This document shows, one piece after another, positions 16,055-37,830 of a stretch of 64,000 nucleotides of DNA. The DNA is from Corallium rubrum. Taxonomy: Eukaryota > Cnidaria > Anthozoa > Scleralcyonacea > Coralliidae. How positions within the stretch are numbered: the stretch's first letter is position 1; each line of letters opens with the position of its first letter. Position numbers and translations under genes: made by a program. The notes below the pieces were generated by a model. That model saw only the letters and a list, made by a program, of their open reading frames with translations. It did not search any database and was not told the DNA's origin. Location of the stretch: assembly GCA_964035015.1 (NCBI GenBank), contig OZ036017.1, forward strand, positions 5,505,496 to 5,569,495. Reading direction: 5' to 3'.

Positions 16055-16450
16055 ATATGAGTCAAACAAGTGGAACTATGTTGAAAATTGTAATATTTCG
16101 ACTTTATTTCAAAGTCATCATTAGACAAGTGAAAATACAAAAACATGCCAGGTCTTATATACAAGTCAAAAGATCGATGACATCATCGGCAACAAAGGAG
16201 AAGAAAACCTAACAGTAATTACACGAGAGAAGACTTAACACTAGCTATTTACATATACGTCAGAAAACCTAACACTATTTACAGAACTGAAGCTCTAATT
16301 GCTTATCAGGTTAGGCAAAAAGTGACAGTTCTTTGCTAGCCTTTCAGGCCCGAGTTTAGCTTGGGTTTATTAAACTTAATTTGCAATGCTTCCATTATTA
16401 ATAGTTGATTAGTGTTAAATAAATTATTTGAGTAACGAATTTTGTAATAG
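16055..16450 (-). mobile_element. Penelope-like element 3' fragment
   Basis: On the minus strand it matches the 3' end of the Penelope-like element at 36490-37830, including the end of the ORF (CTCGGGCCTGAAAGGCTAGC) and the 3' UTR. It is severely 5'-truncated. The hammerhead-like core is present but its CTGATGA has become CTAATGA, which should abolish cleavage. Confidence 0.8.
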
Positions 16451-16800
16451 TGCAATGCTCTGACCACTGAGCCACGGAGGGCGTTCTACACTTGAATTTT
16501 CCTTCACCCAAAATCCTTAGAACACGCTATGTAATCGAGTGAAATGCCTAATATCACTTATGATATACCCAATTCTCTCCTGGCATTACTACCTTATTAT
16601 ATATACAGAACTCGCGATCAAGCTCTCGGCAACGCCCTCCGTGGCTCAGTGGTCAGAGCATTGCACTAGAATCGCAAGATCGTGGGTTCAATTCCTGCTG
16701 GAAGGCATGTGTAGTTGCATTTTCCGCAACTGGTCCCACGGTTTGGTCTTAAAATGTATATATTCTACACTCGAATTTTCCTTCACCCAAAATCCTTAAA
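16449..16800 (+). mobile_element. tRNA-derived SINE copies
   Basis: A full plus-strand copy starts at about 16629. Box A is TGGCTCAGTGG and box B is GGTTCAATTCC, spaced as in a tRNA gene. A body follows, ending in CTTCACCCAAAATCCTTA. A scrambled copy at 16449-16545 has the tRNA-like head inverted and the tail in plus orientation. Other copies are at 53215-53400 (minus) and 53520-53690 (plus). A tRNA-type pol III promoter plus a shared non-tRNA tail defines a SINE family. Confidence 0.8.
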
Positions 16801-18000
16801 TATTCCTTGGGGGGTCCGGGGGCATGCCCCCCCGGAAATTTTTTGAAATTGGCATTCTGACGGTACTTTGGGGAAAGATTTAAAAGTTTTAAATCGTGTT
16901 TTCAATAGCGCATTTTATCAAACCTGGAAGGTGTCGAATAAATTTATCGGACAAAGTGGACGTTTTATTATGCAAATACATTTAAAATTGTAGAAATAAC
17001 GGGGGGAAATCCAATAAATCGAATCTTAGGTAGCTGCTACGCATGCACCCACGACGGAAATCCTGAATAACATCAGAAAGTACACATAAACACATTCATA
17101 TGACAATATCAAAGACTCATGTTATCAAAATCATTAAGCACTTTAGATATTTTGAATGATATTCCAGGCCACTGAGGCTAGGATCTGGTCGTGTGAGAAA
17201 CATCAAGAGGTACACGAGGCAACCAAACAAAACTAATGTGTTCTCATGTTGTGCAATATTTACGCAGAACTATCATTACCAGACATCACATGGTTCAATT
17301 TAAATAATTCACGTTCGCGCGCGCTATCAAATTTACTAACCCATACAGTCATTCAGCCAGAATAGAATACTATTATAAACGTCGCGTCTATATATGACTA
17401 TATAATATACGCGTTTGATAATCAAAGGATTAGTTACCGCGATAGGTTCTGAACCGTTTGAGTCTGACTGCCAAGACTCTGAGAATCCTTTGACGAGTAA
17501 TACCTTCTGGCCTTAGCCAGTGTCGATAATATTTGCGCGTCTGACAACCAAAGGCTTAACGTTAAAACTTACCTACCGATCGGGACAATTTAATCATCAC
17601 TGCTGTTTAATTTGAAGTGAATCCTACACGTTTTATCACGTTTGTAAAGTCATGTTTGAAATGTGTTCGAAACTGAAAGAGCTCTCCCAGTCTGACTCAA
17701 TTTATCTTTGGCAGAATCGGCAGTCTCGACAGCAGATCAGTCGGCAGACCAGGCAAGAACTACAAAGTAAAACGCCGCCAACCAATCAATGTTCATGATA
17801 AAGAGCTTCTGCGAAAATTCAACCAATGAGAATAAGTCATATAACGGTCCAAATCAGGCAAAAAAGACAACGAAATCAGGCAAACCAATGAACGAGCGTA
17901 ATAGAATTCGTTTTAGATATTTAGCCCATCACCGCAGCTAATAGCCTAATACAATAGCTTAATATGAATATCAATGCCCAGCATAATACACGAAGCAAAG
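16800..18000. other. Non-coding stretch
   Basis: No gene seen. A short palindromic block GGGGGCATGCCCCC lies at about 16818-16834. The rest is unremarkable AT-rich sequence. Confidence 0.4.
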
Positions 18001-18009
18001 CCATAAGTT

Positions 18010-19407
18010 TAAAAGTAATTTACTGAATCTAACGTTTCGTTGCTTCTCGCAACATCTTCAGAGAATGAATGATGGAATAAATAATTACAAATATATAAAT
18101 AGGTTACTAATAATAACTATTACAGATATATGAGAGGTGAGAGGTCGGGAGGTGAGATGTCAGAAGAGAGAAAGTGGGAAGGAGCTGATGTTTGCATTAA
18201 GCGAGGGTTTAATCTTCTGAATGAGTAAGCTTTCCTTAATTAGCAGATCAGTGACCGAAGTGCCAGAAGATAAAATAGTAAAGTCCTCAAGAGAGATGGT
18301 ATGGCCGCGGTTTCACAGTGGTGTGAAAGAATACTTGAGGGCGAAGGATTAGTGCGTTTCTTGCCAGTAATGGCGGAAACACACATGTGATCAGAAACTC
18401 GAGTGTGAAGAAGTCGGCTGGTTTGGCCGATATACAACATGCTACAATGTTGACACTTAAATTGATAAACAACTCGAGATTTAAGACTTTGGGTAACATA
18501 TCTTTGAAACGAAAAAAGTGTGATAACCGAACGGTTGGGCGAAAAACAATACAAAGATTGATATGCGGAAAACTAGATGAAAATAATTTTAAAATTTGTG
18601 TACGGAGTTGGAGACAGTGCTGTCCAGTGAAAGGAAGAGAAAAGTAAACCAATTTTTTAGGTGCAAGCGAAACTTTGGCAATAGGCGAGGAAATTTTATC
18701 TAAGAATAAACGAACAGATTTTTCAATAAGGTTTTTTGGATAACCATTAAGAATAAATGTTTGTTTAAATTTTTCGATTTCCAAAAGAAAATTTTCATAA
18801 GAAGAACAAATGTTAAAATAACGTTGTAAAAGAGTAAATAACAATCCTTTCTTATAAATATCCGGAATAAAACTTTCAAAATTTGTATATAAACCAGTAG
18901 AGGTTGGTTTACGAAAAACAGAAGTCGAAAAGGAACCATTGAGGCGAGAAATCATGATATCGAGAAAGGATAACATCTTGTCATTCTCTGTCTCAGCCGT
19001 AAACATTATATTTTGATGTTGTCTATCTAAATAATTAAGAAATGGTTTTATGTGTTCAGTCGAACGAAAAAGTAGAAAGCAATCATCAACATATCTACGA
19101 TAAAAAACGGGTTTAAAATCAGCCGGACAATTGTAAAGCCAAGAATTTTCATGAAACGAAAGAAAAATATTAGCGAAGATGGGTCCAAGCGGGGAACCCA
19201 TAGCAACACCGTCAATTTGTTGGTAAAGGGAACCGTTGAAAAGGAAGTGGCAATTTTTGACAGACAATTTTAGTAGTTTAGAAAACTGGTCTCGAGTGAA
19301 ATTTTTAAAATGGGTAGAATTTCTAAAGAGCTTATTAATAATAATTTCAATAGTTTCATCCAGGGGAATGTTGGTAAAAAGCGATTTAACATCAAAGCTA
19401 ATAATTT
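18010..19407 (-). mobile_element. Penelope-like element, inverted copy 1 (RT plus GIY-YIG)
   Basis: The minus-strand frame 19267-18287 encodes the C-terminal half of a Penelope-type reverse transcriptase (QIDGVAMGSPLGPIFANIF; YVDD in YRRYVDDCFLLF; FLDIMISR) followed by a GIY-YIG nuclease start (CSMLYIGQTSRLLHTRVS). The RT plus GIY-YIG pairing is diagnostic of Penelope-like elements. The copy is truncated at its 5' side, and the C-terminal end shifts frame near 18300. A hammerhead-like core lies at 18030-18062: CTGAAGA, stem II GTTGC/GCAAC, GAAACG. Confidence 0.88.
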
Positions 19408-19415
19408 AGTCATGG

Positions 19416-20825
19416 CTAGCTTTGATGTTAAATCGCTTTTTACCAACATTCCCCTGGATGAAACTATTGAAATTATTATTAATAAGCTCTTTAGAAATTC
19501 TACCCATTTTAAAAATTTCACTCGAGACCAGTTTTCTAAACTACTAAAATTGTCTGTCAAAAATTGCCACTTCCTTTTCAACGGTTCCCTTTACCAACAA
19601 ATTGACGGTGTTGCTATGGGTTCCCCGCTTGGACCCATCTTCGCTAATATTTTTCTTTCGTTTCATGAAAATTCTTGGCTTTACAATTGTCCGGCTGATT
19701 TTAAACCCGTTTTTTATCGTAGATATGTTGATGATTGCTTTCTACTTTTTCGTTCGACTGAACACATAAAACCATTTCTTAATTATTTAAATAGACAACA
19801 TCAAAATATAATGTTTACGGCTGAGACAGAGAATGACAAGATGTTATCCTTTCTCGATATCATGATTTCTCGCCTCAATGGTTCCTTTTCGACTTCTGTT
19901 TTTCGTAAACCAACCTCTACTGGTTTATATACAAATTTTGAAAGTTTTATTCCGGATATTTATAAGAAAGGATTGTTATTTACTCTTTTACAACGTTATT
20001 TTAACATTTGTTCTTCTTATGAAAATTTTCTTTTGGAAATCGAAAAATTTAAATAAACATTTATTCTTAATGGTTATCCAAAAAACCTTATTGAAAAATC
20101 TGTTCGTTTATTCTTAGATAAAATTTCCTCGCCTATTGCCAAAGTTTCGCTTGCACCTAAAAAATTGGTTTACTTTTCTCTTCCTTTCACTGGACAGCAC
20201 TGTCTCCAACTCCGTACACAAATTTTAAAATTATTTTCATCTAGTTTTCCGCATATCAATCTTCGTATTGTTTTTCGCCCAACCGTTCGGTTATCACACT
20301 TTTTTCGTTTCAAAGATATGTTACCCAAAGGTCTTAAATCTCGAGTTGTTTATCAATTTAAGTGTCAACATTGTAGCATGTTGTATATCGGCCAAACCAG
20401 CCGACTTCTTCACACTCGAGTTTCTGAACACATTGGTGTTTCCGCCATTACTGGCAAGAAACGCACTAATCCTTCGCCCTCAAGTGTTCTTTCACACCAC
20501 TGTGAAACCGGCCATACCATCTCTCTTGAGGACTTTACTATTTTATCTTCTGGCACTTCGGTCACTGATCTGCTAATTAAGGAAAGCTTACTCATTCAGA
20601 AGATTAAACCCTCGCTTAATGCAAACATCAGCTCCTTCCCACTTTCTCTCTTCTGACATCTCACCTCCCGACCTCTCACCTCTCATATATCTGTAATAGT
20701 TATTATTAGTAACCTATTTATATATTTGTAATTATTTATTCTATCATTCATTCTCTGAAGATGTTTGCGAGAAGCAACGTTTAAACGTTGGATTCATTAA
20801 ATTACTTTTAAACTTATGGCTTTGC
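19416..20825 (+). mobile_element. Penelope-like element, inverted copy 2 (RT plus GIY-YIG)
   Basis: A mirror copy of 18010-19407, head to head across a spacer of about 18 bp near 19408-19420. The RT begins at SFDVKSLFTNIPLDETI, carries MGSPLGP and YVDD, and is stopped at 20054-20056 where the sister copy has Gln (CAA to TAA). GIY-YIG residues LYIGQTSRLLHTRVSEH are in the frame 20165-20656. The hammerhead-like core near 20755 is damaged. Both copies start at nearly the same internal point, which is typical of Penelope partial tandem or inverted arrays. Confidence 0.88.
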
Positions 20826-20879
20826 TTCGTGTATTATGCTGGGCATTGATATTCATATTAAGATTAAGATACCCGCCTG

Positions 20880-21088: not shown

Positions 21089-21360
21089 TTAAAGTGCATA
21101 TACGAGAATTTTCATTTCCCCCCCTAAAAATCGGCCATATTGAGACGATTCTAACGATATATAACACTCCTTCAACGGATGAAAACTTCCCGAGATATTT
21201 GGTTCTAAACATGGCGAAAAATAGGTTTTTCAAAACAATGGCCGGGAGAAAAGAGTCTGAGTCCGAATAAGGCTGATGACGTCACATCGGGACAAGCTGT
21301 ATTTGCGACTACAGTTGTTTACAGGCGGTGTGCGCAATACGACCGCAAAGCGTGATGGGG
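21089..21360 (+). repeat. Left terminal inverted repeat with A-type inner module
   Basis: Outer part shared with the right end. The inner part, GGCGGTGTGCGCAATACGAC (21324-21343) through GATGGGG, is shared instead with 29268-29318 in reverse. It lies about 100 bp upstream of the nuclease ATG at 21460, so it probably contains the promoter. Confidence 0.8.
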
Positions 21361-21459
21361 TTTTCGCGCCTGGATTGCAATTGTGCCTCATTTGCATTTT
21401 GCCTTGACCGAGAACACCAAGAGACAATCGTCAGTATCAGCGTATGTAAATATTCTTCG

Positions 21460-24400
21460 ATGGGAATCAATTGCCTTTTTCCATACATAAAGAAATATGG
21501 TAATAAGGTTCATATCAGCGAATTTTATGGACGAATTGTGGCAGTCGACGCTTCGTGTTGGATCCATAAAGCGTTAGCAATTTCTTTATCACAACATGGC
21601 AATCGCGAAAGGTGAGTTATAATAAATACTATTTATATCTTATTAGATGTTTTGGTGTGTAGTATCGCTGTATATTTTTACAAGTTGTGCCGTATTTTGA
21701 CGAGCCCGCAGGGCGAGTCAAAATACAAACAACGAGTAAAAATATACAGCGATACTACACACCAAAACATCTTATAAGAGATTTATTATACAACTGCTTT
21801 GATGAACAAATTTTTATGGAAAAAGAAAACTCTAAAAAAGCCAGAGATGTAGCGTGACTTGCACCAGGACAAAACCAGGACAAAATAATAAGCATACATG
21901 AAGTAGTTCCCAACTGATAAATCTGATTGGCTAACAAAATCTGTCAAACCGGTTTTCTACAAGTTTTCTACTATCCAAATAACTAACTATCCAAATATCG
22001 CTGTTTATCATTCATTTCGTTTCTATCCGGCATTCTGATTGGTTAATTTACCTGCAAATAACTGAGTGCAAATAATTTTCTGCTGCAAATAATTTTATGA
22101 GCATGCGCACTAGCGGTAACACTGCTGACGGCAAATAATTTTCGTAAACATGGCGGCTAGTTCTTCAGCTATCCCAGGAAATAATCGAGAGTATTTGGAA
22201 GCATCCTTAACGACAATGTACTTCAGAAAAGAAATAGTGAAAAGGAAGTTTTAGTGAGATAAAAAGCAAGACTCGTGCCAACATAAAGTAAGTTTTACGA
22301 AGATTTTAGTATGCCGAAGACAGAGAGAAGAGTGGCGATCTCTTACTTCAGGCATTTCAAATTTTTAAGTATTTTATGAATGATAAATCAATTATTGAAC
22401 TCGTCTATCGCAAAATATCATGATTTGTCAGCGTCTCGCTACTAGTTATTTGCCTCTGCCTTCGGCATCGGCAAATAACTAGTAGCTCGCCACTGACAAA
22501 TCATGATATTTTGCTCCGACTCGTCCAATAATTGATAAATATTTGTACTCATTTTTAGCGTTATTTGGACGTTTTTAATGCAGTTGTATAATAAAATGGA
22601 CTATTCGACCAGGTCCTAGGATAGTTCTGTGTGTATTGTGATTGTTTTTTCCCCCGTTTTTCAGGTTACTACATATTTTCACTAAACATTTATCTTCAAT
22701 ACAAGAAGCTGGAGTGATTCCATTTGTAGTGTTTGACGGGCAAAACCTACAAGCAAAAGCTAAGGAAAATCTTCGACGACGCAGGTATATACATTTTAGA
22801 CCTTTGCTTCCTATAGAAGTATGGGGTTAGGGCATAAACTAAATTATATTTTCTTTCTTAAAGTCGTAAACAAGACCTTGCTCGTAAAGCACAACGGCCT
22901 AATATAACGATCACCGAAAAAAGAAAGCTTCTTAGCCAGAGTGTCGAAGTGACATATGAAGACATGGTAGAATGCATGAAGGTGAATATTAAATTATTCT
23001 ATTTATTTTTGAAGTTTGTCAGAATAGATTATATAACCCTGGAAACATGTGGGTATTATAACACAGTGGGTATTTCTGTTGTTATACTGCTCCCCAAGAT
23101 AATTGTTGCCCAAGGCTTATTGATGTGTTTGCATGAAGTATTTGATTATTTATTACAGATATGCCTGAATAAAGGGGTGAAGTATGTCGTCTCTCCATAT
23201 GAATCTGATGCACAGATTGCATATTTGGTGCAAAATGGCTATGCAGACTTGGCAATTACCGAAGATTCGGATCTGCTGGTATATGACTGCAAAAAGGTAA
23301 GATTGGTTTGTTATTGATCAGTATGCTGTGTTTACACTGTGAGCCTTCTGTAGTGGAAACTAAGCTTTGGCCTGAACCTGACGAAGGGGTTGTTGCAAAA
23401 AACAACAACATTGACGAGTAAAATTGCCTGGCGTTAGACAGAGTAAAGTAATAAAGTACATGTAGGGTGCTTCCGGGTTGATTGCCACATCCTAATTTAT
23501 TATTTTACTTTTTTATTATTTTACTTGATTTTACTCGTCAAGGGGTGAACACTGGCTCTTGGTGGGTTAAGGATACAAAACAAGATAAGGTCACTGACAG
23601 CTACACCTGGTATAGAAAATTTTAATTTTATTGTGTTTTTCAGGTTTTGGTAAAACTTGAACAAAGTGGCACAGGAGAGCTGTTTGAGCTGGACAAGATT
23701 TTGAATGGGATAAATGTAACCGTGACACAATTCATTCATGGTTGCATAGCTGCAGGTTGCGACTACCTAGACAATGTTCGAGGGGTTGGCATTAATAAAG
23801 CTTTTACCTATGTAAAATCTGGTCAGTTATTTACAGAGTTAAGGAAAAAGGGAGCTAATGTCCATTACGAAGGTCAATTCAAAAAAGCCATGGCAGTTTT
23901 TGAACACCAAACCATTTTTAACCCCACACTGAATGTGAATCAGCCTTTGAATGACTGGAAGGAGAAACCAGATGACGAACTGCAGAATTACTGTGGAAAG
24001 TATCCTTACTTAAAGCATATACAACAATAGATAATAATTAAATGCTTTCCGCATTGCTTTCATTTTATTTTATGTAAGCACTCAACTTGGTTCACTTTCA
24101 GTAAAGTTCAAATAGTAGCTAGCCTAAAAGCTAAAAACAAAAATGATACAAAAAATAATATTCAGCCTTCCTGTTTGTGAACTTGACTTATCTGCAGAAG
24201 GTAAGGATTTGAAAGGGAATTTCATTAGGTACCATTTACTGTTAACACAGGGGAGGGGCTGGTTAATGAACAATTACAGTGAACAAATTTCATTTTACCA
24301 GAGAAGCTAGCTGCTAGACCTCCTAGTAAACTCCCATTGTAATTTGACACTTCCTAGCCTACCAAAATCTTTGCAGTCCTGGGTTATAACACTTGTTGTG

Positions 24401-25914
24401 ATGGTCAGAATAAAATTCTTAACTTAATAATCAGCTTCCTGGACAAGCATTTTGCCAATGAGCTTGCTGCAGGAAACATCAACTCAACAAGTGGAATGAA
24501 ACAAAATAACTTTTCTCACCTCCAGGTAGTAATTGGTTGCCTTTTTATTAATGTGTATTAGAGTAAAATAATCTAGTTGGTGCATTACAGCTTAATGGCT
24601 TAATTTTGTCCTTGTACAATGAAGTAACACAATCAGTGTAATATGGAACCACACAAGAAAGATGGATTCACATCTCCTTTTGTGTGGTTGAGATAGTTTT
24701 TATGTTGACCCATTGAGTGCCAGTGCTATGCAACTGAATGGGTTAATTAAACCAATTCTTATCAATAACAGGAATATCTTTAAATTAAATACTGCCTATT
24801 CATAACTTCATTTTAGATTCCTCTTCCAAACATGCCAATGGAAAGTCAGACTACAGGTACAGTAGGGTACAGTAGTGAATTTATTTCTGCCAGTATTTAC
24901 CAGCCAGTATTTACCAGCAGGTAAATACCAGCCTAAAATGAACATGTTTTTTGATCGATTTGCTTAGACAAAGGTGATCATAATTTGTGACTTGTTCTTT
25001 GAAATAATTGTTATCGTAGCTATCTTAAAACATCACAAAATCTCTGAAAGCTGTATTTGTAAAAAAATGAGTCATGATGACAATTATCTTCAAAGAAATC
25101 ACAAAGACCATTTTGGTCCAAGACCGTGCAAACGATGTTATCACAACACAAAAGGGTGTGACTGCAGCTAATTATACTTACGCCATCATAACTTAAGCTC
25201 ATATGAACTTATTTTGTGTAATTGCAGGTGAAATAGTTGGGACCATTACAAGCATTGCAGACTCATGGTTCTCATGGACTATACCAACCTTCCCTGTTAT
25301 GTCCATAGAATTTAAACAAATAAATGTAGTACTAGACTCTGGCAATGCAGATGCTCTAATTAGAAGATCCACTGACATCTCCCCAGGAAAATTTAAATGT
25401 ACGTCACACTGCAAAATCACAATTGATGGAATTGAGTACATTGTCTTATGGGAAATAACAACAGTAAGCGAGGTTAGAGATGAGAGTGCAGGTATGGCGA
25501 GACAAAACATTGAAGAAGAGGAAATTGAAAGTGCACATTGTTCCATTTAAAGTTCTTGGAACATGTCATTCAGCCGAAAGACAGAAAATATTAGAGGAAG
25601 CGTTCGAGTACCTAAATGAGTATAATAGGCCAGTCTATGTGCATTTGGAAAAAGAACCAGACAATTTACATGATGCAAATGCAATTGCAACTTATGTGAA
25701 AACTGATGCTGCATTCCACAAGGTTGGTTATATTGCAAGTGAACTGACACAGTATGTTAGCCCCCATATGAATGATCCTAGCTTTGATGTGCCTATAAAA
25801 TACATCAAACTACGTACAACTTTTATGCGAATTGGATTTTATCTCACAATTAACATTTCCAAAAAAGGATCATGGCATCCTAATGTGGTCAAAGCTAGCA
25901 AGTCTGCTATGTAA
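21460..25914 (+). CDS. EXO1/XPG-family nuclease running into a HIRAN domain (9 exons)
   Basis: Exons: 21460-21611, 22665-22784, 22864-22981, 23159-23296, 23644-23999, 24435-24525, 24817-24856, 25228-25491, 25553-25914. All have GT/AG borders and phases that close, giving 546 aa. Residues 1-325 match exonuclease 1: N-terminal IVAVDASCWIHKAL, FVVFDGQNL, the XPG-I box PYESDAQIAYL with EDSDLLVYDCKK, and helix-hairpin-helix AAGCDYLDNVRGVGINKAF. The family cuts 5' flaps or resects 5' ends using two metals held by these acids; all are present. The choice of 23999 as donor skips a TAG at 24028 and aligns residue for residue with EXO1 (YCG..., then ELAAGNIN). Residues about 427-546 form a HIRAN-like domain (VLGTCHSAERQ; EPDNLHDANAIA; KVGYIASEL), a DNA-end-binding fold. 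Weak point: the last intron is only 61 nt; otherwise the ORF would stop at 25550 and HIRAN would be a separate frame. Confidence 0.75.
21645..21775. repeat. Hairpin in intron 1
   Basis: Arms of about 55 bp (AGATGTTTTGGTGTGTAGTA and its complement) with a GC-rich tip GACGAGCCCGCAGGGCGAGTC. Lies in intron 1 of the nuclease gene. Confidence 0.75.
22010..22560. repeat. Intronic repeat with ATGGC start-like segment and hairpin
   Basis: A hairpin at about 22385-22540 has arms around CAAAATATCATGATTTGTCA and a tip TGCCTTCGGCATCGGC. Upstream, AAACATGGCGGCTAG opens a short frame (MAASSSAIPGNN...) that ends near a GTAAGT-type donor after one frameshift. This looks like a captured 5' exon within a foldback element in intron 1. 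Confidence 0.45.
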
Positions 25915-26459
25915 ATGCATAAAATATACTGTATAGAACTGGTTTGATGCAACCCATCGTATTGAAAAATCAACATTTGTAAAGTAAATTAACTTGTCTG
26001 TTTTTAGAGTGCTTATAAATATGAATGACTATATTCATTGTTATTTGTTACTTACAAATATGTGCATAAGGTTATGTGCTGTGCGTCTATGGTGTCAGTA
26101 GTTACTTTACATTGGTGGAGCATCTCAAAACACAATACCTAGTGGAAAACACACTTCATATAATCATGTTTTTACCATTTGCATTGCATACACTATTCAG
26201 CGTCACACTAAGAAATCACGCGATTTTGGGTGGCAAAAATAACGGACACCAAAGGAAACAACTGTCTGAATTTGCCAAAAAAATTACCTTTCTGAATTTG
26301 TATTAATGAAGGTAAATAAAAGCTTTACCAAAGTAAGTTAAGTCTAAACATTTGCCACCCAAAATGGTGGAAGTCAAAATTATGTCAAATTATGTGTTGT
26401 GACGTCACTTGCAAAAAAGGGCTGGGTAGTCCACTACAGTAGTCTGTACAAACTCGCAC

Positions 26460-28854
26460 TCACATATGTTCTGGCACTGGTGGCAAAGCCACTGGAGTGC
26501 GAAGAAATTTAGCTCTAGCTGTCAACTGGCCCCTTTGGGGAAGGGATGCACGATTTGCAACAAACACTCCAGGATCACCTCTTCTTGACAAATGAACTTT
26601 ATCCAGTCTTTCCACAATTTCAGGTCCTGATGGTTTGTCAAAAGACGGCAATTCATTATCGGTGTATCTAGTTTTTGCCCCTGTCCAATAGTAAAACTGC
26701 AGGTCTTTATCAATTCTCTTCCGAAATTCATCTAAAATTTTGGGTTGCTCACCGAAGAACTGCTTCAGGTCAAAAATATCCCCGAGCATCTCATGCAATA
26801 GGGCAATGAAACATTCAACATCATCGCTCGACGAGGATCGTGGGTGCTCTGGTGGGATGGATCTTGCAATATTTTCTAGTCTTCGTAGCCGCCGACTTTC
26901 TAAATTTGCAACAAGCCTAACAATCACCTCCCTTGTGAAACCACATATGCCTTTCAATGGCCAGTGAAAAAACAAAATTAAACATGTTGTTTCATTAAAA
27001 TCACTTTGAACTTGAATTGGGGTCATGCTTTTAATTTCGATTCGGAAAATTAGACAAAAACAGCTGCTAAGAATTTAGGTGCAATTCTGGTCATTCTTGT
27101 GCAACCACATACCTTATACAAAGTAGTGGCACACATTAATTCAATAAACATGGATGTTTTGGTACTAAAGCAAGCAAACAGGTCTTTGATGGTACTCAGA
27201 AAACTTAGTGGAAAGTTTTATGATAACACCTGTGTAAGGTCAAACTAAACTCCAGTATCAATGTCTTTGTATAACATTATTATAAAAATTGTAAAAACTG
27301 CAGCTCACAAGAAAAAGGTTTGCATAAAATCTGACCTGTTTACATCCAACAAACTGTAGTCAGGTGTTTGTCTATGCCAGGGTATCCAATCATCAAGGAT
27401 CCAGAATTTCATTTCCTCGCAATATGAATGGCGATCGGCATCTGACAGCCCTCTCCCATCAGCGGCTTTGTGCCAGTTACGAATTCGTCGAATGACGTTG
27501 GCACCACTTTTATGTCCCTTAATTTAAAAATTACTGGTCTTTTATGAAATAGACAAATGGCATTGGGGAAGTTATGATTGGAATATATACATGTACTGAT
27601 AATTTTTTCTACCTTGGGCCCCCTCTTGGAACCTACAACATTTTGCATGAGTGAAAGGCCAAAATAATTGTATTTAAAGTACTATATACCTTTCTTTCCA
27701 GAAATGATATTACTCCGCTTGAAATAATTCGTTCGCAGTCAGGAACAGACTGTTTGTTTTTCCCAATCAGTGCTTCATAGGTCAGCCCAGTTGAATTATC
27801 ATGCAGTGCTTCCCTCATAAATCTGAGGTCAATCCCAGGAATACGGCCTTCTCGAAGGCATCCAATGATCCTTTTGAGCAAGTGGTTATGATCCTCTCGC
27901 TGATGGACATATTCAGACCCGTTTTCATTACACTCTGGTTGGTAAAGGTTGGCTGTGAAGTCAGCAGGATCATTTGAAAGTTCTTTCAGTTTTTCCACTT
28001 CCTTTCTGAACATGTAGGTTGCCAATACCGATTTTAATACTTCAGCTGTAGTTTCTTTTCGCCCTTCTACCCATGGATGAGGATCGTGAGAGAATGGAAA
28101 CAGTTTCCTCCTCAAAATGTATGCAGCTTGTTCCAAGGACATTTTTTCACTTTTCATGAAATTATCTAGCCACTGCAAGTCATCCATGGGAATGGCAGAG
28201 TGATTTTTCAATGGTTTGCCTTAAATAAAATAGAATAAGACACAAGCTACTACACTGATAAAGTGAAGGATAAAAAGTCATGGGTTCATTAGCCACACTG
28301 AAGTGCGAGTTGTATGATTACCTAGATTTTGTCTGCTTCAGACAACTTACAGTATTCTGGCACAGACATCACAATCATAAGCTTTTATTAATCCTCACCT
28401 TGACAGTTTACATTGACTGGCATTAGATTAAAGTAGGGCACATTAGGGTGCAATGCAAGTCAGACAATTTTACTTGTCAAGGAGGGGGCGCTGGCACTCA
28501 ATGCTTGGTTAGTTGATTTAATTTAAATCAGTATGATTCGAATACCATACCTGATCGTTGGGATTTACATGCATTGTTTACTGCTTAGGCACATCCATCC
28601 CAGAATTCTTTATCTTTGGTTGTTGGCCATTTGTCGTTCCACGCGTCTTTCCAATACAGGCATATATACTGTATTAGCATACAGGTTTCTTGTTTAGTCC
28701 ATGGCACTGGTTTTTCATTCTTGCTGGATAAAGAACTTTGAGAAGTTGTTTGGAAAAGGATCTTCCTCGAACTACCTTCACGTAAAGCCAACTTGGGCTT
28801 TGGCTTCCCTGGACTGTCGCCAGTTGACAGCTCGAAGCGTCTCTTGGTAGCCAT
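26460..28854 (-). CDS. SANT/Myb-like transposon-type protein (4 exons, 513 aa)
   Basis: Minus-strand exons 28854-28593, 28219-27690, 27517-27336 and 27027-26460 have GT/AG borders and phases that close to 513 aa with no internal stop. The N-terminus is basic and low-complexity, then a trihelix/SANT-type DNA-binding motif: PWTKQETCMLIQYICLYWKD, later KEFWDGC. The middle and C-terminal parts (RNWHKAADGRGLSDADRHSY; HPRSSSSDDVECFIALLHEM; FYYWTGAKTRYTD; RRGDPGVFVANRASLPQRG) I recognise only as a conserved invertebrate family of unknown function. SDDVECF is acidic, but I cannot assign a DDE core. The gene converges on the nuclease gene, their 3' ends are about 550 bp apart, and its start faces an A-type TIR module at 29268-29318. 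Likely role: DNA-binding partner of the element. Confidence 0.75.
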
Positions 28855-29267
28855 TTTGTTCCGGTGTCATTTACCTGTTAAAATAGGCATTATAAATTCA
28901 AAAATTGCAGACGAACCGTACGAGGTGCGATGTGGTGCGATGGGAATTTTGGATAGTTTATGCTTTAAAAAACAAGTATAGAAAAGAAAACTTATTGATT
29001 TCTAATCGTGTAAGGATATTCTGGCAATATAAAAACGCTACTAAAACACCACGTCGAAACATGCCAAATATGGGTTCAGTTCAATCGGCTATAACTTTCG
29101 ACACAGTCAAGTTTTCGTGAATGATTTTAGGTACACATTAACACCAAACACTCCTTTTCGATATAATAATAAAAAACGTAACCAAAATGAGAGGAAATAA
29201 GAATAAAATAAATGCTAAACTTACCCATCACTGAAGGTGAATTAACATTCCTTCGCAAAATTTGTAA

Positions 29268-29440
29268 ATTGTGCCCCCATACTGCTTTGCGGTCGTATTG
29301 CGCACACCGCCTGAGTTGTTTAGTATACAATTGAGGACGAAATACCTTCGCGGTGTGTTGTATTCGGATGTTTCAACAAGCCAGACCCTAAAAACGGTAC
29401 AATACTTCATAGGGAAGTTTACGATGAAGATTTAATACCA
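29268..29440. repeat. Internal head-to-head copies of both TIR inner modules
   Basis: Reading left from 29320 on the minus strand gives the A-type module seen at 21324-21360 (GGCGGTGTGCGCAATACGAC). Reading right from about 29318 gives the B-type module (CAATTGAGGACGAAATACCT, then TTCGCGGTGTG) that is otherwise found just inside the right TIR, in reverse, at 34500-34640. The two overlap at GTTGTTTA. The A module lies upstream of the SANT-like gene start at 28854. Confidence 0.75.
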
Positions 29441-30340
29441 GCAGCAATAGCATGATGCCAATGTTAAGATGTTAAGTGACGAACGCAGATACAGTATGGC
29501 GCACTGTATGGTCTATTATTAAGCATTTCAACTGGCCAGACGGTTTCTTCGGAAACATTGCTTTCAAGACAAGAGAAGCCCCATATCCTGTGGCTAAAAA
29601 GAGCTGATATATTAGAGAAACCTTCTACCCACCATATTTCCTGCAGACAAACGCGAAGGAAAGCTTTGAATTGAGAGTCAAGCGCGACAAGGAGGATTCA
29701 ACGCATGTTTTGATGCAATTATTTTAACAAACACAGACTCCAGGTAAAATAACTTTTTTAGGTATTTAGAAAGAAAGAAGTGCTGCTGAAAAACCACAAC
29801 CTTCCAGATCATTTGAATACATCGAGCATGAAAATATAATGAAGACAAAATAAGCATATGTCGTTATGTCGAACATCTTGTCAGCTGCTTGTCTGATCAA
29901 GTCAAGTCTTTCTCGTCTCGTATGTGTTTTGTGTGTTCACAGACATAGTTACTGGGCAGTATAAATGTCTCTGGCAAGTATCTTGATATTATATACGCTT
30001 ACAATTGCACACGACGTTGATTAAGTGAACTTGCAGGTGACACTTTTCTAGGTACAAACATGAAGCTGTGTTATAAGGCGAAGAGACTTGACATATTGAA
30101 CGCTGTACATGTGTGGAAATAATACTTTCTTTCTTTGCTTTCCTGATGTCTGATCAAGTCTTTCTCGTAGACATAGTTATTGGTCAGTAATGTCGCTGGC
30201 AAGTATCTTGATATTATATACACTTACAATCGTACACGCCGTTAATATTTGATACCCGAAGAGACTCGACATATAATTCTCGTTACATGAACCACTGACT
30301 TTTTTCTCGAGCTTTACACACTGATAATTTCAAGGAGTCA
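29441..30340. other. Non-coding, with internal near-repeats
   Basis: No gene seen. Two related blocks (about 29875-30060 and 30140-30270) share GATCAAGTCTTTCTCG, ACATAGTTA, and GGCAAGTATCTTGATATTAT, so part of this stretch is a local duplication. Confidence 0.5.
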
Positions 30341-30344
30341 ACTT

Positions 30345-30730
30345 GACTCCAAAAATGGAGAAAAAAAAGGTACAGATTGACTCCTTTTTTGGAGTAATTT
30401 TTACTCCAAAATGTTTACTCCCTTTTTGGAGTACTTTTTACTCCAAAACTGGAGTAATATTTACTCCAATAGGAGTTAAAATTACTCGAATATGAGTTAA
30501 AATTACTCCAGAAACGGAGCTAAAATTACTCCAGAAACGGAGTTAAAATTACTCCAGAAACGGAGTTAATATTACTCCAGGGACAGAGTTAATATTACTC
30601 CACAATCGGAGTAAGAAAGGCATCAATTCTGCTCCAAAAATAGGGTAAAAATTACTCCTATTTAGGAGTAGTTGAACTCCAAAATTGTGACTCCCTTTCT
30701 GGAGTAAGTTTAACTCCAAAAAGAACTACC
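30345..30730. repeat. GGAGT/ACTCC palindromic minisatellite
   Basis: Units such as GAGTTAAAATTACTCCAGAA alternate with TTTTTGGAGTA blocks. Each unit is nearly self-complementary. Same motif grammar as 6120-6365 and 33535-33740. Confidence 0.8.
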
Positions 30731-30794
30731 GCAAGATAATCACCCTAAAATTACAGTAACCGCTTGATTACAGTCAACTCTCAAAGCAGACACT

Positions 30795-31655
30795 TAGGCT
30801 TGGTTTAGACGTCGAAGTTCCGTCGCATTTAATTCGTCGCATTTAATGCGACCAATTTTATCCGACGGAAATGCAACGTCTAAACTGATTTTATTCGACG
30901 CGTCGCATTTAATTCGACGCTGTCGAATTATGCGACGAGCTGTGTCGCATAATTCGACGGAAATGCGACGTTGATTTAGACGTCGCATAAAATGCAGTCG
31001 AATAAAATGCATAAATTAGTATAATCACTTTTTCTATCCTACAATATCCCTCAATACCTAACAATTTTACAGTTCGTGGGCCCCACGAAGATCATTTTCA
31101 ACATGGCGTACTTGTTTTTATCGTCCAGAATGTTTTGTGACGGACGAAAACAATTAGTATGAAGTTGGGTGGCAATAAAGGGTTACTTGCTGAAGGTATT
31201 GGAGTTTTCGGCTGAAGAAAACTGTCGAACTAGCCGAAAGCAACACATTAATCGAGTTTTAAGAATGAGAGAGCTTTAAGCGAAAGCTTCTACATTCCAA
31301 TTCCACTAACGACAAACAGGCGACCAACGCCAAGGTTTAACGACACATGTTGAAACACAGAGAGTATCTGAAGGTCTTCTTTGTGTTTTAGCTTTTTGAT
31401 AAACTCACTTGATCATGAAGATAAAAACATGGCGTTTCTCTTAACAGCTGGGTGCCATGCAAATTGGAGCGGTAATTCGAAACTCGAAACACCAACGTTA
31501 AGAGCTATTTGGCGTTAAATTTCAACCGTAACATTAAATGCGACACATTAAATTCGACGTCTAAACCGAACTGTGCCACTTCTGTCGCATAATCGTCGCA
31601 TTAAATTCGACGAATTAAATGCGACGGAACTTCGACGTCTAAACCAAGCCTTCAT
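30795..31655. mobile_element. Foldback element with GCTTGGTTTAGACGTCGAAG ends
   Basis: About 860 bp with inverted ends (GCTTGGTTTAGACGTCGAAG at left, its complement at right) and subterminal iterations of GTCGCATTTAATTCGACG. Internal sequence includes CAACATGGCGTACTTG, which opens a short frame ending near a GTATGA donor-like site. No transposase. Confidence 0.8.
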
Positions 31656-31731
31656 GGAAGTGAGAACAAAAAGGCAAATCATGTAAAGCATATAATATTT
31701 CGTAAATCATGTAATACAGCAACATATGTAA

Positions 31732-32487
31732 GGCCCGTTTCAAACGTCGAACTTGCCATGTGCCGAGCTTAATAGTTTGAATTAAGCACATGATAAGCTC
31801 GACGTTTGAAACAATTAAGTTCGACTGTTTTAATTAAGTTCGACCGCGAAGTTAAGTTCGACCGGTTTGGTCGAGTAGAACGACCAAAGCGCGACAAAGC
31901 GCGACGTGGTTTCAAACGTTGAACTTATCATGTGCCGAACTTAATGCAATTCACGAAAAAACGTGTTTGTCTAGTTTTTCTAACTGTAATGCGAGCTGAA
32001 AACATGAAACTTTATACGCACGGCGGTCTTTTCGAGTAAATATAGATGCGAGAAGAGATCATTACTGTTTGTATCGTAATAAGCATGTAATCGATGCGCT
32101 GAGTTTGAAGTTTGAAGAAGATGAAGAAGTCAATCATTCCGCATTCAACTGACAACAAGCTTGTGTAAGGCAGATTCAAGTCAATCATCTACTCATAATT
32201 ATTCTGTTCTCTTTTCTCGCTCTCTTCTGATTTACCGTCACCATTTTCCGACAAGAAAATAATGAGATATAGACAAGAAAAACGAAAACCGTGCGATTCA
32301 TGGCACATTATTCATGTTAAGCGCTGCACATTCGCGTAGGTGGCCACTGACCAAATCCAACGAATGCTCGCCGCTAGCAATTAAGTTCGACATGTTAGGC
32401 TTGACGTTTGAAACCACGTCGAACTTTGTCGAACTTAATATGTATTAAGTTCGGCACATGATAAGCTCGACGTTTGAAACGGGCCTA
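31732..32487. mobile_element. Foldback element with GGCCCGTTTCAAACGTCGA ends
   Basis: About 755 bp. Ends TAGGCCCGTTTCAAACGTCGA and its complement (CGACGTTTGAAACGGGCCTA). Subterminal TTAAGTTCGAC and TGTGCCGA blocks repeat in both orientations. Same architecture as the neighbouring 30795-31655 element but different sequence. No transposase. Confidence 0.8.
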
Positions 32488-32532
32488 AGACACCCCAGTA
32501 TAACAAGACAATCATGTAAAAAGTGTTCTCTA

Positions 32533-33187
32533 TTAGCTCAATTCCTGGATAAACTTATTGACTGCCACTCGTTGCTTCGCCTCACTGGCCCTGTCCATAA
32601 TAGCAGCCTCCAAAAATAGAAATGTATTTTTTGTTGAGCTGGGATACTCAACATTAAATATGTAGTAGCAGCCTAACAAGACTGCCAATGCCTGAATAAT
32701 TGGTACTGAGCTGTTCAATTTGGCAATAATCTTGCCCTCTCCAGCAATGTAGAGGGGAGTTACATCACTCATATCACCTGCTCCAACAAGTTTTGGGGCC
32801 AATGACTCATTAATGACAACATCAATTGATTCATCAATCATCATCCTATATAAAAGTTAAAATGATATACTGGTAAATAACAGCAACATAAATGAAAAAC
32901 ATGGCCTCCTTGGCTTGCAAGTGTTTGCATGGGAACCGGGCTGGTTTGCCTTCTATGAACAACCCTTTGTGCTAGTTCACCTCTTATGAACAACCCTTGA
33001 GCTAGTTCACCTCTTATGAATAACCCCTTGAGCTAGTTCACCTCTCTTATAAACAACTGCTTACACAAATTACTAACAGTCAAACATACAGAGCAATTTT
33101 TGAGCAGCTCCGAACCAGTTGTACTACGTTCTTTCATCAAAAGTGGAAGCACTAACACTGCTGCAGTCTCCTCAATGCCTATATCTC
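32533..33187 (-). pseudogene. Exons of a conserved uncharacterised protein
   Basis: The last exon (about 32845-32533) encodes PLYIAGEGKIIAKLNSSVPI and then LGCYYIFNVEYPSSTKNTFL, ending in a stop. An upstream exon-like segment 33187-33090, with TTTCAG acceptor and GTATGT donor, encodes ETAAVLVLPLLMKERSTTGS. Both recall the C-terminal region of a multicopy invertebrate and fish family of unknown function. The donor phase (0) does not fit the last exon frame (needs 2), so the model is incomplete or broken. It lies in the distal half of the 13.8-kb TIR unit between foldback insertions. Confidence 0.45.
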
Positions 33188-33271
33188 CTGAAATAAGCAC
33201 CCAGGGCACTTAATCGATTAAATACGGTAATAATATGTCTGAGTAAAGTACGTTGTTATTATATTAATTTA

Positions 33272-33457
33272 AGCCTGGTTCTCATATGTCGCCGATCGTC
33301 GGCGATTTGTGATTTAGATGCATGTTAAGTAAAAGAATAAAAGCACTGCTTTTCTGCATTGTTCTTTATTACTTAACATGCTGCTGCATTTCCCGTTTTA
33401 ACATGCATCTAAATCACAAATCGCCGACGATCGGCGACATATGAAAACCAGGCTTAA
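33272..33457. mobile_element. Short near-perfect palindromic MITE
   Basis: About 186 bp whose halves are complements: AAGCCTGGTTCTCATATGTC at left, its complement at right ending ACCAGGCTT, with GCCGATCGTCGGC near each tip. Flanking T-rich dinucleotides agree on both sides. Its end motif also occurs at 3112-3123. Confidence 0.85.
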
Positions 33458-33534
33458 GAAAATTAGACAATAGACAAGTTCGGCAGCAGCAGTAAATCAG
33501 GACTAATTGGAATTATTTTAAAAAGCAATCCATC

Positions 33535-33745
33535 ACCAATAATTTTACTCCAATATCAGAGTTATTATAACTCTAGTGGTGGAGTTAATTTTAATCCAAT
33601 GGGAGTAAAATTGAAAATATCTCGTCAAAAGGAGTTAATTCAACTCCAATATAAGAGTCAAAACAACTCTGAAATTTTAACTCCTATGAAGGGAGTTATT
33701 TTAACTCCCTTCCTAGAGTTAAAATAACTCCTTGAAATTAACAGT
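33535..33745. repeat. GAGTTA/TAACTC palindromic repeats
   Basis: A third copy of the GAGTTA...ACTCC motif grammar, about 200 bp, non-coding, near the right end of the TIR unit. Confidence 0.75.
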
Positions 33746-34499
33746 GCAGCTATTTACTGTGGTTGGTATGATTAGGGTTTTCTGCGTATTCGTATCTATA
33801 GAATAAAGCTACAGTTTGGAAGATCATTAAATTGTATTCCTGATATGCCAATAAATATTATAATTTATCAATGGCAAAAGTGTTTTACCTGTCAGACCAC
33901 AAATAGCTAAAACATAAACAGACTCTGGAAATTACAGAAACGGAGATAAATACAGAGTTGCCTACGGATGAGGCTAGAGATGAATATGTTATAAATGGCT
34001 TAAGGCCCAATTACAGATTTACGTAAAAGCTGTGAAGGGAAAAATATCAGTAGTCCCTGCGAGAAGACATGCAGCTGACAAGGTGCTTGACAGGACGATA
34101 TATTAGACTGCTTGTTTTGTTTTCATTATATAATTATTCAAGAGTAGATGTATTTCAAGGGTATGGAAGATCGGGATTTTTCAGTGGTATTTGACTCTTC
34201 TTCGTACTTCCTAAATATCTAAAAAGTTATTATACCGAGGGTCCATATTTGTGGAAAAAATGCATTAAATTACAATATACAACGGGTTTGTTGATTTCTC
34301 ACTGCACCGGTGACTCGGTCGTGTGGAGCAGATGCGGGTGGGTAGAACGTTACTCTAATACCACCCATTTCTATACACGAGATATAGAGCTTATCTTGTA
34401 CTGGAAAAATACTCTTCCAGCGAAACCGACGTTGGAAATCGACTGGCTTACAGTTTGTGTGCGTTTGCGCTTGACAAGTTAACAACCCAAAGTTGGCGT

Positions 34500-34853
34500 C
34501 TTTCTCTTGCCTCCAATCTTAAACCTTTAGTGTAAGCCTTCCTGTGAAGTGTTATACCATTCTCTGAGTTTTTGCCATTATCTGGTTTGTTGAAATACTC
34601 GAATAAAACACACCGCGAAGTATTTTGTCCGCAATTGTAAAGTAAACAACTGTAGTCGAAATTACAGCTTGTCCCGATTTGACGCCATCAAACTCAGACT
34701 TTTTTCTCCCGGCCATGTTTTGAAAAACTTGTGTTTGGAGCCAAATATCTCGGGCAGTTTTCATCCGTTGAAGGAGTGTTATATATCGTTAGAATCGTCT
34801 CAATACGGCCGATTTTTAGAAAAAAAATGAAAATTCTCGTATATACACTTTAA
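34500..34853 (-). repeat. Right terminal inverted repeat with B-type inner module
   Basis: The complement of 34632-34853 aligns with the left end. The inner part (CAATTGCGGACAAAATACTT on the minus strand, then CGCGGTGTGTTTTATTCGAG) matches 29327-29440 instead of the left inner part. Confidence 0.8.
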
Positions 34854-36489: not shown

Positions 36490-37830
36490 TTGGCCAAATG
36501 CACCTTAAAAAACCAATTTTAAATTGCTGCAATAAAACCACCTTTTCATTTGACAACCAGTTATATGAACAAATTGATGGTGTTTCCATGAGATCTTCAC
36601 TTGGTCCAGTCTTGGCGAACATCATTCTAACAGAATTTGAGTGGACTGTTGTTTCTGATCTATTTCGTTGCGGTACCATAAAAATTTTATAAACGTTATG
36701 TAGATGATACACTCCTTCTCATTAAGTCTTCTAACATTCCGGCAGTTTTAACTTTGTTTAACAAATTTGATAAGAATTTAAGATTTACAGTAGACACGTT
36801 TCCTGAAGGAATTATTCATTTTCTCGATATTAAAATTTCAATAGACGGCACTGACGTTTATCGTAAAGATACGCACACCGTCCAATATACACATTTTTTC
36901 TTAAATCTTTTATGTCCTGGAATGGTTATCCAAATGGCGTCAAAAACTTTTTGGTTAATCAATTAAAACGTAAATATACCGCTCCTTCTGCTGCAGCTCC
37001 TACTCAAAAACCACTCGATGATGATAAATTACCTAAAATTTGGATCGGTATTCCCTATCTTGGTAGACGGGGTGAAAATCTTGTCAAATCTTGTATCTCA
37101 AAAATTCGGCGTTATCTTAAATATCCGGCACTAAAAAAGTCTCTTATTTTACTTCTAATAAAGACAAAATTCCAGATTTGTCGCGCAGTAAAGTTGTCTA
37201 TCAAATTACTTGTCCGGGCTGCAAATAAAACATATATAGGAAAGACTGATCGCTGCCTTCAAAAACGTCTTTCAGAACACGCTACTACACACAACACCAG
37301 TGCCGTTGCTCAACACGTTCTAGAATGTGAACATGCACAATTCATTGCCGACCTCCACCATCAATACGACCGACTTAACGATCTTCCCTTCTCTTTTAAT
37401 CTGACTACCAGTATGAAAAACTTAATTTTTAACAATTACAAAATTCGTTACTCAAATAATTTATTTAACACTAATCAACTATTAATAATGGGAGCATTGC
37501 AAATTAAGTTTAATAAACCCAAGCTAAACTCGGGCCTGAAAGGCTAGCAAAGAACTGTCACTTTTTGCTTAATTAACCTGATAAGCAATTAGAGCTTCAG
37601 TTCTGTAAATAGTGTTAGGTTTTCTGACGTATATGTAAATAGCTAGTGTTAGGTCTTTTCTCGTGTAATTACTGTTAGGTTTTCTTCTCCTTTGTTGCCG
37701 ATGATGTCATCGATCTTTTGACTTGTATATAAGACCTGGCATGTTTTGGTATTTTCACTTGTCTGATGATGACTTTGAAATAAAGTCGAAATATTACAAT
37801 TTTCAACATAGTTCCACTTAATATAAATAA
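36490..37830 (+). mobile_element. Penelope-like element, 5'-truncated (RT plus GIY-YIG)
   Basis: Broken frames along the plus strand give YEQIDGVSMRSSLGPVLANI, YVDDTLLL (36690s), FLDIKISIDGTDVYRKDTHT, SWNGYPNGVKNFL, and then a GIY-YIG start CPGC/CGAANKTYIGKTDR with RLSEHATTHNT. At least two frameshifts are needed, so it is dead. After the stop near 37546 comes a 3' UTR with a hammerhead-like core at 37763-37791: CTGATGA, stem II GACTTT/AAAGTC with a GAAAT loop, GAAA. It is a different family from the 18-20.8 kb pair but the same as the fragment at 16055-16450. Confidence 0.85.

Follow-up and report, generated by a model that had tools for sequence, protein, structure and literature searches.

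A defective, probably multi-gene DNA transposon with a 9-bp target-site duplication, an EXO1-like nuclease gene and a putative transposase gene, nested in a TTAA-ended unit of Corallium rubrum

The 64,000-nt stretch of the Corallium rubrum genome analysed here (the window; GenBank assembly GCA_964035015.1, contig OZ036017.1, positions 5,505,496 to 5,569,495 of the forward strand) contains, at window positions 21322-29313, what is very probably a defective member of a multi-gene DNA transposon lineage with terminal inverted repeats (TIRs), whose unit would include a transposase and an end-processing nuclease. Direct observations are the ends of the element, its 9-bp target-site duplication, its multi-copy nature, two genes that recur tail to tail and diverge together, and short relatives (about 1 kb) whose TIRs start alike. 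An earlier note on this DNA had described positions 21089..34853 as one 13.8-kb TTAA-flanked unit carrying the same genes. The features that separate the gene-bearing element from the unit around it are the following.

21322..29313, no strand assigned: gene-bearing transposon, defective copy, 7,992 bp (ends common with the sister copy C46; 9-bp duplication; uninterrupted paralogous sites)
21313..21321, plus strand: left target-site duplication AGTTGTTTA (single in 7/7 paralogous sites and in the outer right arm)
29314..29322, plus strand: right target-site duplication AGTTGTTTA (perfect match to the left one)
21322..21360, plus strand: left TIR, starting CAGGCGGTGTGCGCAATACGACCGC... (inverted repeat I12, 39 nt, 92%)
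29275..29313, minus strand: right TIR (inverted repeat I12)
21089..21321, plus strand: outer TTAA unit, first part of the left arm (separate element; inverted-repeat alignment, other copies)
29323..29385, plus strand: outer TTAA unit, remainder of the left arm (matches 34581-34651 inverted)
34579..34853, minus strand: outer TTAA unit, right arm (uninterrupted version of the insertion point)

The 235-bp inverted repeats that the earlier note had reported at the ends of 21089..34853 are present (21089-21322 against 34853-34642; 234 columns, 84% identity, E 1e-53), and TTAA forms their outermost bases at both 21089 and 34853. They do not bound the gene-bearing element, as had been supposed, since its own ends lie at 21322 and 29313 and are flanked by a 9-bp duplication. 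The 235-bp repeat is scattered across the genome (235 candidates, of which the best 40, the window's own included, were scored), and seven of the seven other copies examined (L002-L008, among the 40 scored) stop at TTAA and have unrelated flanks. Widespread occurrence of the repeat apart from the genes had been named beforehand as something that would speak against the 13.8-kb unit; the repeat does occur in this way, and the gene unit has ends of its own. With AG right after TTAA at its start and CT at its close, the outer unit has the RR...YY termini that, in an excerpt of PMC9587614, set Kolobok apart from piggyBac. It appears to be a separate, dispersed, Kolobok-like element, the label being taken from the terminal signature only.

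The sister copy on contig C46 could be aligned to the window only within 21322-29313. In all seven outer-repeat copies examined, AGTTGTTTA occurs once, at the same place and with no insert, and the right arm of the outer unit likewise has a single AGTTGTTTA and lacks the insert. The comparison of empty sites, proposed earlier as the way to settle the target-site duplication, thus rejected TTAA and pointed to this 9-mer. On the strength of these uninterrupted sites, the alignment limits of C46, the 39-bp TIR and the flanking AGTTGTTTA, the gene-bearing element was delimited as 7,992 bp nested in the outer left arm. The target of its insertion was the left arm of a Kolobok-like, TTAA-ended unit unrelated to it, and this insertion gave the nested structure the look of a single 13.8-kb element. 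The TTAA edge that had been combined with the nuclease and HIRAN belongs to the outer element; the gene-bearing one duplicates 9 bp.

The TIRs of the window element begin CAGGCGGTGTGCGC. A 25-base TIR pattern (at most two mismatches) was found at 17 genome sites, against 0 in the reversed control; 14 of these sites form seven pairs and three are unpaired. An exact 9-bp duplication flanks all seven pairs, and on rechecking no other length matched. A looser pattern of 15 bases was found at 127 genome sites, again against 0 in the reversed control, and 20 further pairs, chosen among the roughly 100 of these 127 sites that were listed, were tested (seven long, the other 13 measuring 0.96-1.2 kb). 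An exact 9-bp duplication flanked 16 of them (6/7 long and 10/13 short pairs). When the two sets were pooled, 23 of 27 TIR pairs had the exact 9-bp duplication, one had it with a single mismatch and three had none. A match at 4 bp was seen in 0/27 pairs, at 8 bp in 0/27, and at 3 bp additionally in 1/27. The 9-bp duplications vary in sequence between insertions. Upstream of the nuclease start, CAGGCGGTG is the left-end start in 12 of the 12 nuclease-bearing copies fetched (12 of 20 requested).

The 0.96-1.2-kb elements with the same TIR start, such as C1:4177711-4178801, look non-autonomous; the exact 9-bp duplication was present in the 10 of 13 given above. Two 3.1-kb elements (C22:14048657-14051741 and C28:14468365-14471469) have 9-bp duplications and XPG matches inside, and no transposase match falls inside either of them among the listed genome matches. 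At C1:79406117-79430533 two mirror-image element copies with reverse-complement flanks were found, which represent an inverted duplication or an assembly foldback; the TIR pair tested there lacked a duplication. Two mirror copies of the element match a Dendronephthya protein in four stretches, with identities of 90% and 95% in two of them and of 61-78% in the remaining two.

Within the element lie two convergent genes, as had been proposed: a plus-strand nuclease-HIRAN gene and a second gene on the minus strand. The first consists of these parts.

21460..25550, plus strand: EXO1/XPG nuclease gene, a single open frame over eight exons (splice model)
21460-21611, 22665-22784, 22864-22981, 23159-23296, 23644-23999, 24435-24525, 24817-24856 and 25228-25550, plus strand: nuclease exons (splice model)
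25468..25914, plus strand: HIRAN part (its frame differs from that of the preceding exon in the window copy)

The Pfam domains of the nuclease, XPG_N (1.8e-17) and XPG_I (3e-21), and its match to human EXO1 in PDB (312 residues, 1.6e-47) bear out the EXO1/XPG assignment made earlier, and the HIRAN domain was recovered as well (4.6e-8, 33.2 bits against a Pfam cut-off of 24.7; 43.9 bits in copy L043). The EXO1-aligned stretches vavD, vfDg, pyEsDaq, eDsDl and gcDyl, which contain the carboxylates that are catalytic in EXO1/FEN1, are kept in the window nuclease. The last nuclease exon and HIRAN share one open reading frame (ORF) in nine of the 14 copies with listed ORFs (L043-L046, L049, L050, L052, L053 and L059, some of them nearly identical), and from these frames the nuclease is predicted to be joined to HIRAN as one protein. 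A tblastn search of a phage collection with P0012 gave no match, and when the L043 HIRAN exon was run against IMG/VR, one stretch fitted a pattern and none could be confirmed as a relative.

The minus-strand gene, which most likely encodes the transposase, was read as follows.

26463..28854, minus strand: putative transposase gene remnant (exon ends read by eye; last splice junction approximate)
28551-28854, minus strand: SANT-like exon with an in-frame stop (open reading frames)
27690-28219, minus strand: putative transposase exon with DxxH (read by eye)
27336-27517, minus strand: putative transposase exon (read by eye)
Ending near 26463, minus strand: last putative transposase exon, with E (read by eye)
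28461..28503, minus strand: site at which about 4.1 kb of the gene, with the first two acidic motifs, is missing (comparison with C46)
21633..22588, no strand assigned: about 0.95 kb in nuclease intron 1, missing from C46 (comparison with C46)

Long relatives of the minus-strand protein are P0045 (1,135 aa), P0046 and P0071 from Branchiostoma (1,181 and 1,223 aa) and P0074 from Dysidea (1,082 aa), and further ones were found in Glandiceps, Porites, Paramuricea, Dendronephthya, Halichondria and Amphiura, so that by group the relatives comprise amphioxus, acorn worm, brittle star, stony coral and sponges. In alignment A4, with P0045 numbering and counting the relatives that cover each position, D462/D465 are conserved in 11/11 (chimeric P0002 counted), D683 in 13/13, D837-H840 (the DxxH) in 12/12 and E1018 in 11/11. 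The DxxH sits between D683 and E1018, and the first two D motifs are about 220 residues apart. Gene context and these conserved motifs mark the protein described earlier as 'SANT-like' as most likely the element's own transposase. The gene is there; the SANT label is weakly supported, because the Myb match in P0058 (0.0028) falls under the curated cut-off. PF21787 (TNP-like RNase H, N-terminal) was above its cut-off in the sponge relative P0075 (2.4e-5, profile positions 62-130 of 137). An NCBIfam scan yielded just two weak coiled-coil matches, both in P0075, and a helicase domain was absent in Pfam scans of the transposases.

P-like transposases are abundant in this genome (142 PF21787 matches), some having open frames of 1,007 aa and identically scoring copies. 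The PF21787 match at C1:67024735 has a HIRAN cluster about 3 kb away.

The copy in the window is defective. Perfectly closing splice phases and freedom from stops, ascribed earlier to both genes, hold for the eight nuclease exons; HIRAN is out of frame, the SANT-like exon has a stop and the transposase gene is short of about 4.1 kb. Since the first two acidic motifs are missing, this copy could move in trans at most. The in-frame stop is not present in C46, which has no counterpart of window 25487-26516 (HIRAN and the transposase C-terminus). Another copy, C47, is 12,426 bp long with an exact 9-bp duplication and holds XPG, HIRAN and transposase pieces; the transposase pieces are colinear with P0045 residues 1-1128, residues 335-442 being unmatched. 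A Pfam scan of 10 of its 12 ORFs of at least 100 aa (two as pieces) returned XPG_I below the cut-off and HIRAN, and no helicase, though split or shorter exons could escape such a scan. No copy is singled out as functional.

Clustering of the genome match lists gave 54 transposase, 45 HIRAN and 50 XPG loci. XPG was found within 6 kb of 33 of the 45 HIRAN clusters, in all 33 cases upstream and on the same strand, and the transposase within 8 kb of 25 of the 45, tail to tail in 24 of these 25; both were in range of 18 HIRAN clusters. Transposase and HIRAN distances are correlated (Mantel r 0.716, with 0 of 10,000 permutations as high) in 13 of 16 copies, three having been excluded for short alignments. 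HIRAN is under constraint between subfamilies: the proportion of synonymous differences (pS) exceeded that of nonsynonymous ones (pN) in 146 of the 146 pairs with pN > 0.05, out of 153 pairs; the closest pair of the window HIRAN is relaxed (ratio of nonsynonymous to synonymous rates, dN/dS, 0.73). This constraint and the co-divergence argue for some role of the nuclease-HIRAN protein in the element. The suggestion of an undescribed multi-gene DNA transposon lineage can thus be kept in part: the lineage is multi-gene, multi-copy and possibly undescribed, and it is not TTAA-edged. The nuclease-HIRAN/transposase gene pair was shown in this genome only.

In the mechanism that we propose, the minus-strand protein would be an RNase-H-fold DDD/E transposase whose SANT-like domain may bind the TIRs; the TIRs, duplications and motifs suggest staggered cuts 9 bp apart and movement by cut-and-paste. 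Since EXO1 acts as a 5' nuclease and 3' ends are bound by HIRAN, a protein that unites them could resect the gap at the donor site or trim the joints. HIRAN might hold the EXO1-type nuclease at 3' DNA ends; after excision or strand transfer the nuclease would trim or resect the remaining ends, and this processing may steer repair towards maintaining or increasing the number of copies. Tentatively, and with less than even confidence, we further suggest a superfamily-level DDD/E lineage outside Academ and P, present in cnidarians, sponges, echinoderms, hemichordates and amphioxus, with 9-bp duplications and with a fused EXO1-HIRAN enzyme of its own that processes ends or steers repair. The Creative Commons-licensed literature in PubMed Central yielded no report that brings together HIRAN, XPG and transposon, or Academ and XPG as whole words, absence there being weak evidence; judging by titles, reports with HIRAN and transposase, or with XPG, DNA transposon and transposase, were off topic.

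Several observations weigh against reading 21322-29313 as a transposon with its own transposase and end-processing nuclease. Three TIR pairs without a duplication and one with a single mismatch were met among the 20 further pairs. XPG is missing within 6 kb of 12 of the 45 HIRAN clusters, and the transposase within 8 kb of 20 of them. The pairs behind the HIRAN and Mantel results are not independent, because the copies are related and some are nearly identical, and many of the pS values are saturated. The fusion of nuclease and HIRAN is a prediction from ORFs. The tblastn pieces of C47 contain stops, some across introns and at least one within a matched coding stretch. PF21787 was over its cut-off in 1/13 relatives (4/13 at E 0.1 or better), loci of the element family were absent, by eye, among the 142 matches of the genome-wide PF21787 scan, and a PDB profile search with the transposase matched no transposase.

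The AcademX branch of Academ transposons carries an XPG nuclease, and elements of the P superfamily have an 8-bp duplication and a THAP N-terminus. The window lineage resembles AcademX in that its members are TIR DNA transposons combining a putative DDD/E-type transposase with an XPG/EXO1 nuclease, and one may ask whether it is an ordinary Academ transposon of that branch, which we consider rather unlikely. According to an excerpt of PMC10045372, AcademX has a nuclease and 3-4-bp duplications and AcademH a helicase and 9-10-bp duplications, and the difference, it says, seems linked to whether a nuclease or a helicase is encoded. From AcademX so described the window lineage is set apart by 23/27 pairs with exactly 9 bp instead of 3-4 bp, by HIRAN on the nuclease and, more tentatively, by the DxxH between D683 and E1018; Academ is not among the superfamilies with C/DxxH (hAT, P, MuDR, Kolobok and Dada) listed in the excerpt of PMC9587614. 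The AcademX label, when tried on the strength of the nuclease, failed the duplication test (9 bp against 3-4). The same 9 bp fall inside the AcademH range in PMC10045372 (excerpt), and an AcademH branch in which a nuclease replaced the helicase would imply that duplication length follows the transposase and not the accessory enzyme. We find this improbable: the window lineage has a nuclease-HIRAN gene, which sets it apart from AcademH by the published description, and a helicase was found neither in the scanned transposases nor in the C47 ORFs scanned.

The order D...D...DxxH...E and the weak, partial PF21787 match in sponge and brittle-star relatives recall P/TNP-like elements, from which the window lineage differs in a SANT-like rather than THAP N-terminus, 9 rather than 8 bp, the spacing of about 220 residues between the first D motifs and an extra nuclease gene. 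Kolobok shares the DxxH, has accessory nucleases in some lineages (PMC9587614, excerpt) and has termini like those of the outer unit alone; Kolobok and piggyBac duplicate TTAA, whereas the gene-bearing element duplicates nine variable bases. Given an XPG-type nuclease together with 9 bp, we did not file the element as AcademX, AcademH, P or Kolobok. Another explanation makes the nuclease-HIRAN gene a captured host gene, a passenger that plays no part in transposition. Its EXO1-like sequence would fit, as would the many end pairs spaced at about 1 kb, which leave no room for the nuclease gene; the gene order kept constant in many divergent copies, the co-divergence with the transposase and the constraint leave it a poor candidate. 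That the 13.8-kb TTAA-flanked unit itself mobilises the nuclease and SANT genes, as its 235-bp inverted repeats with their TTAA edges had suggested, is refuted almost beyond doubt by the genes' own TIRs and 9-bp duplication within the left arm and by eight uninterrupted sites. The nested-insertion misreading of that unit is thereby corrected.

If 21322-29313 belongs to a multi-gene transposon lineage as we read it, an XPG-type nuclease occurring with 9 bp uncouples duplication length from the accessory enzyme, with direct consequences for Academ only should the transposase turn out to be an Academ one. The EXO1 and HIRAN halves both act in DNA repair elsewhere. Their union would add an EXO1-HIRAN protein to the toolkit of a cut-and-paste element, and an end-resection enzyme of the element's own becomes testable.

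The outer TTAA unit also contains hairpin- or MITE-like nested inverted repeats (30796-31651, 31731-32486, 33269-33457 and 30319-33746), one of them with a 23-bp tandem repeat (30438-30612). The whole region lies between 388-bp inverted repeats, 97% identical, at 16068-16451 and 37432-37819. To the left of the outer unit, 17958-20862 is a 2.9-kb near-perfect palindrome (self-complementary at 98.5%), the ORFs of which, judged by eye, presumably encode a Penelope-type reverse transcriptase with a GIY-YIG-like end, present as an inverted pair.

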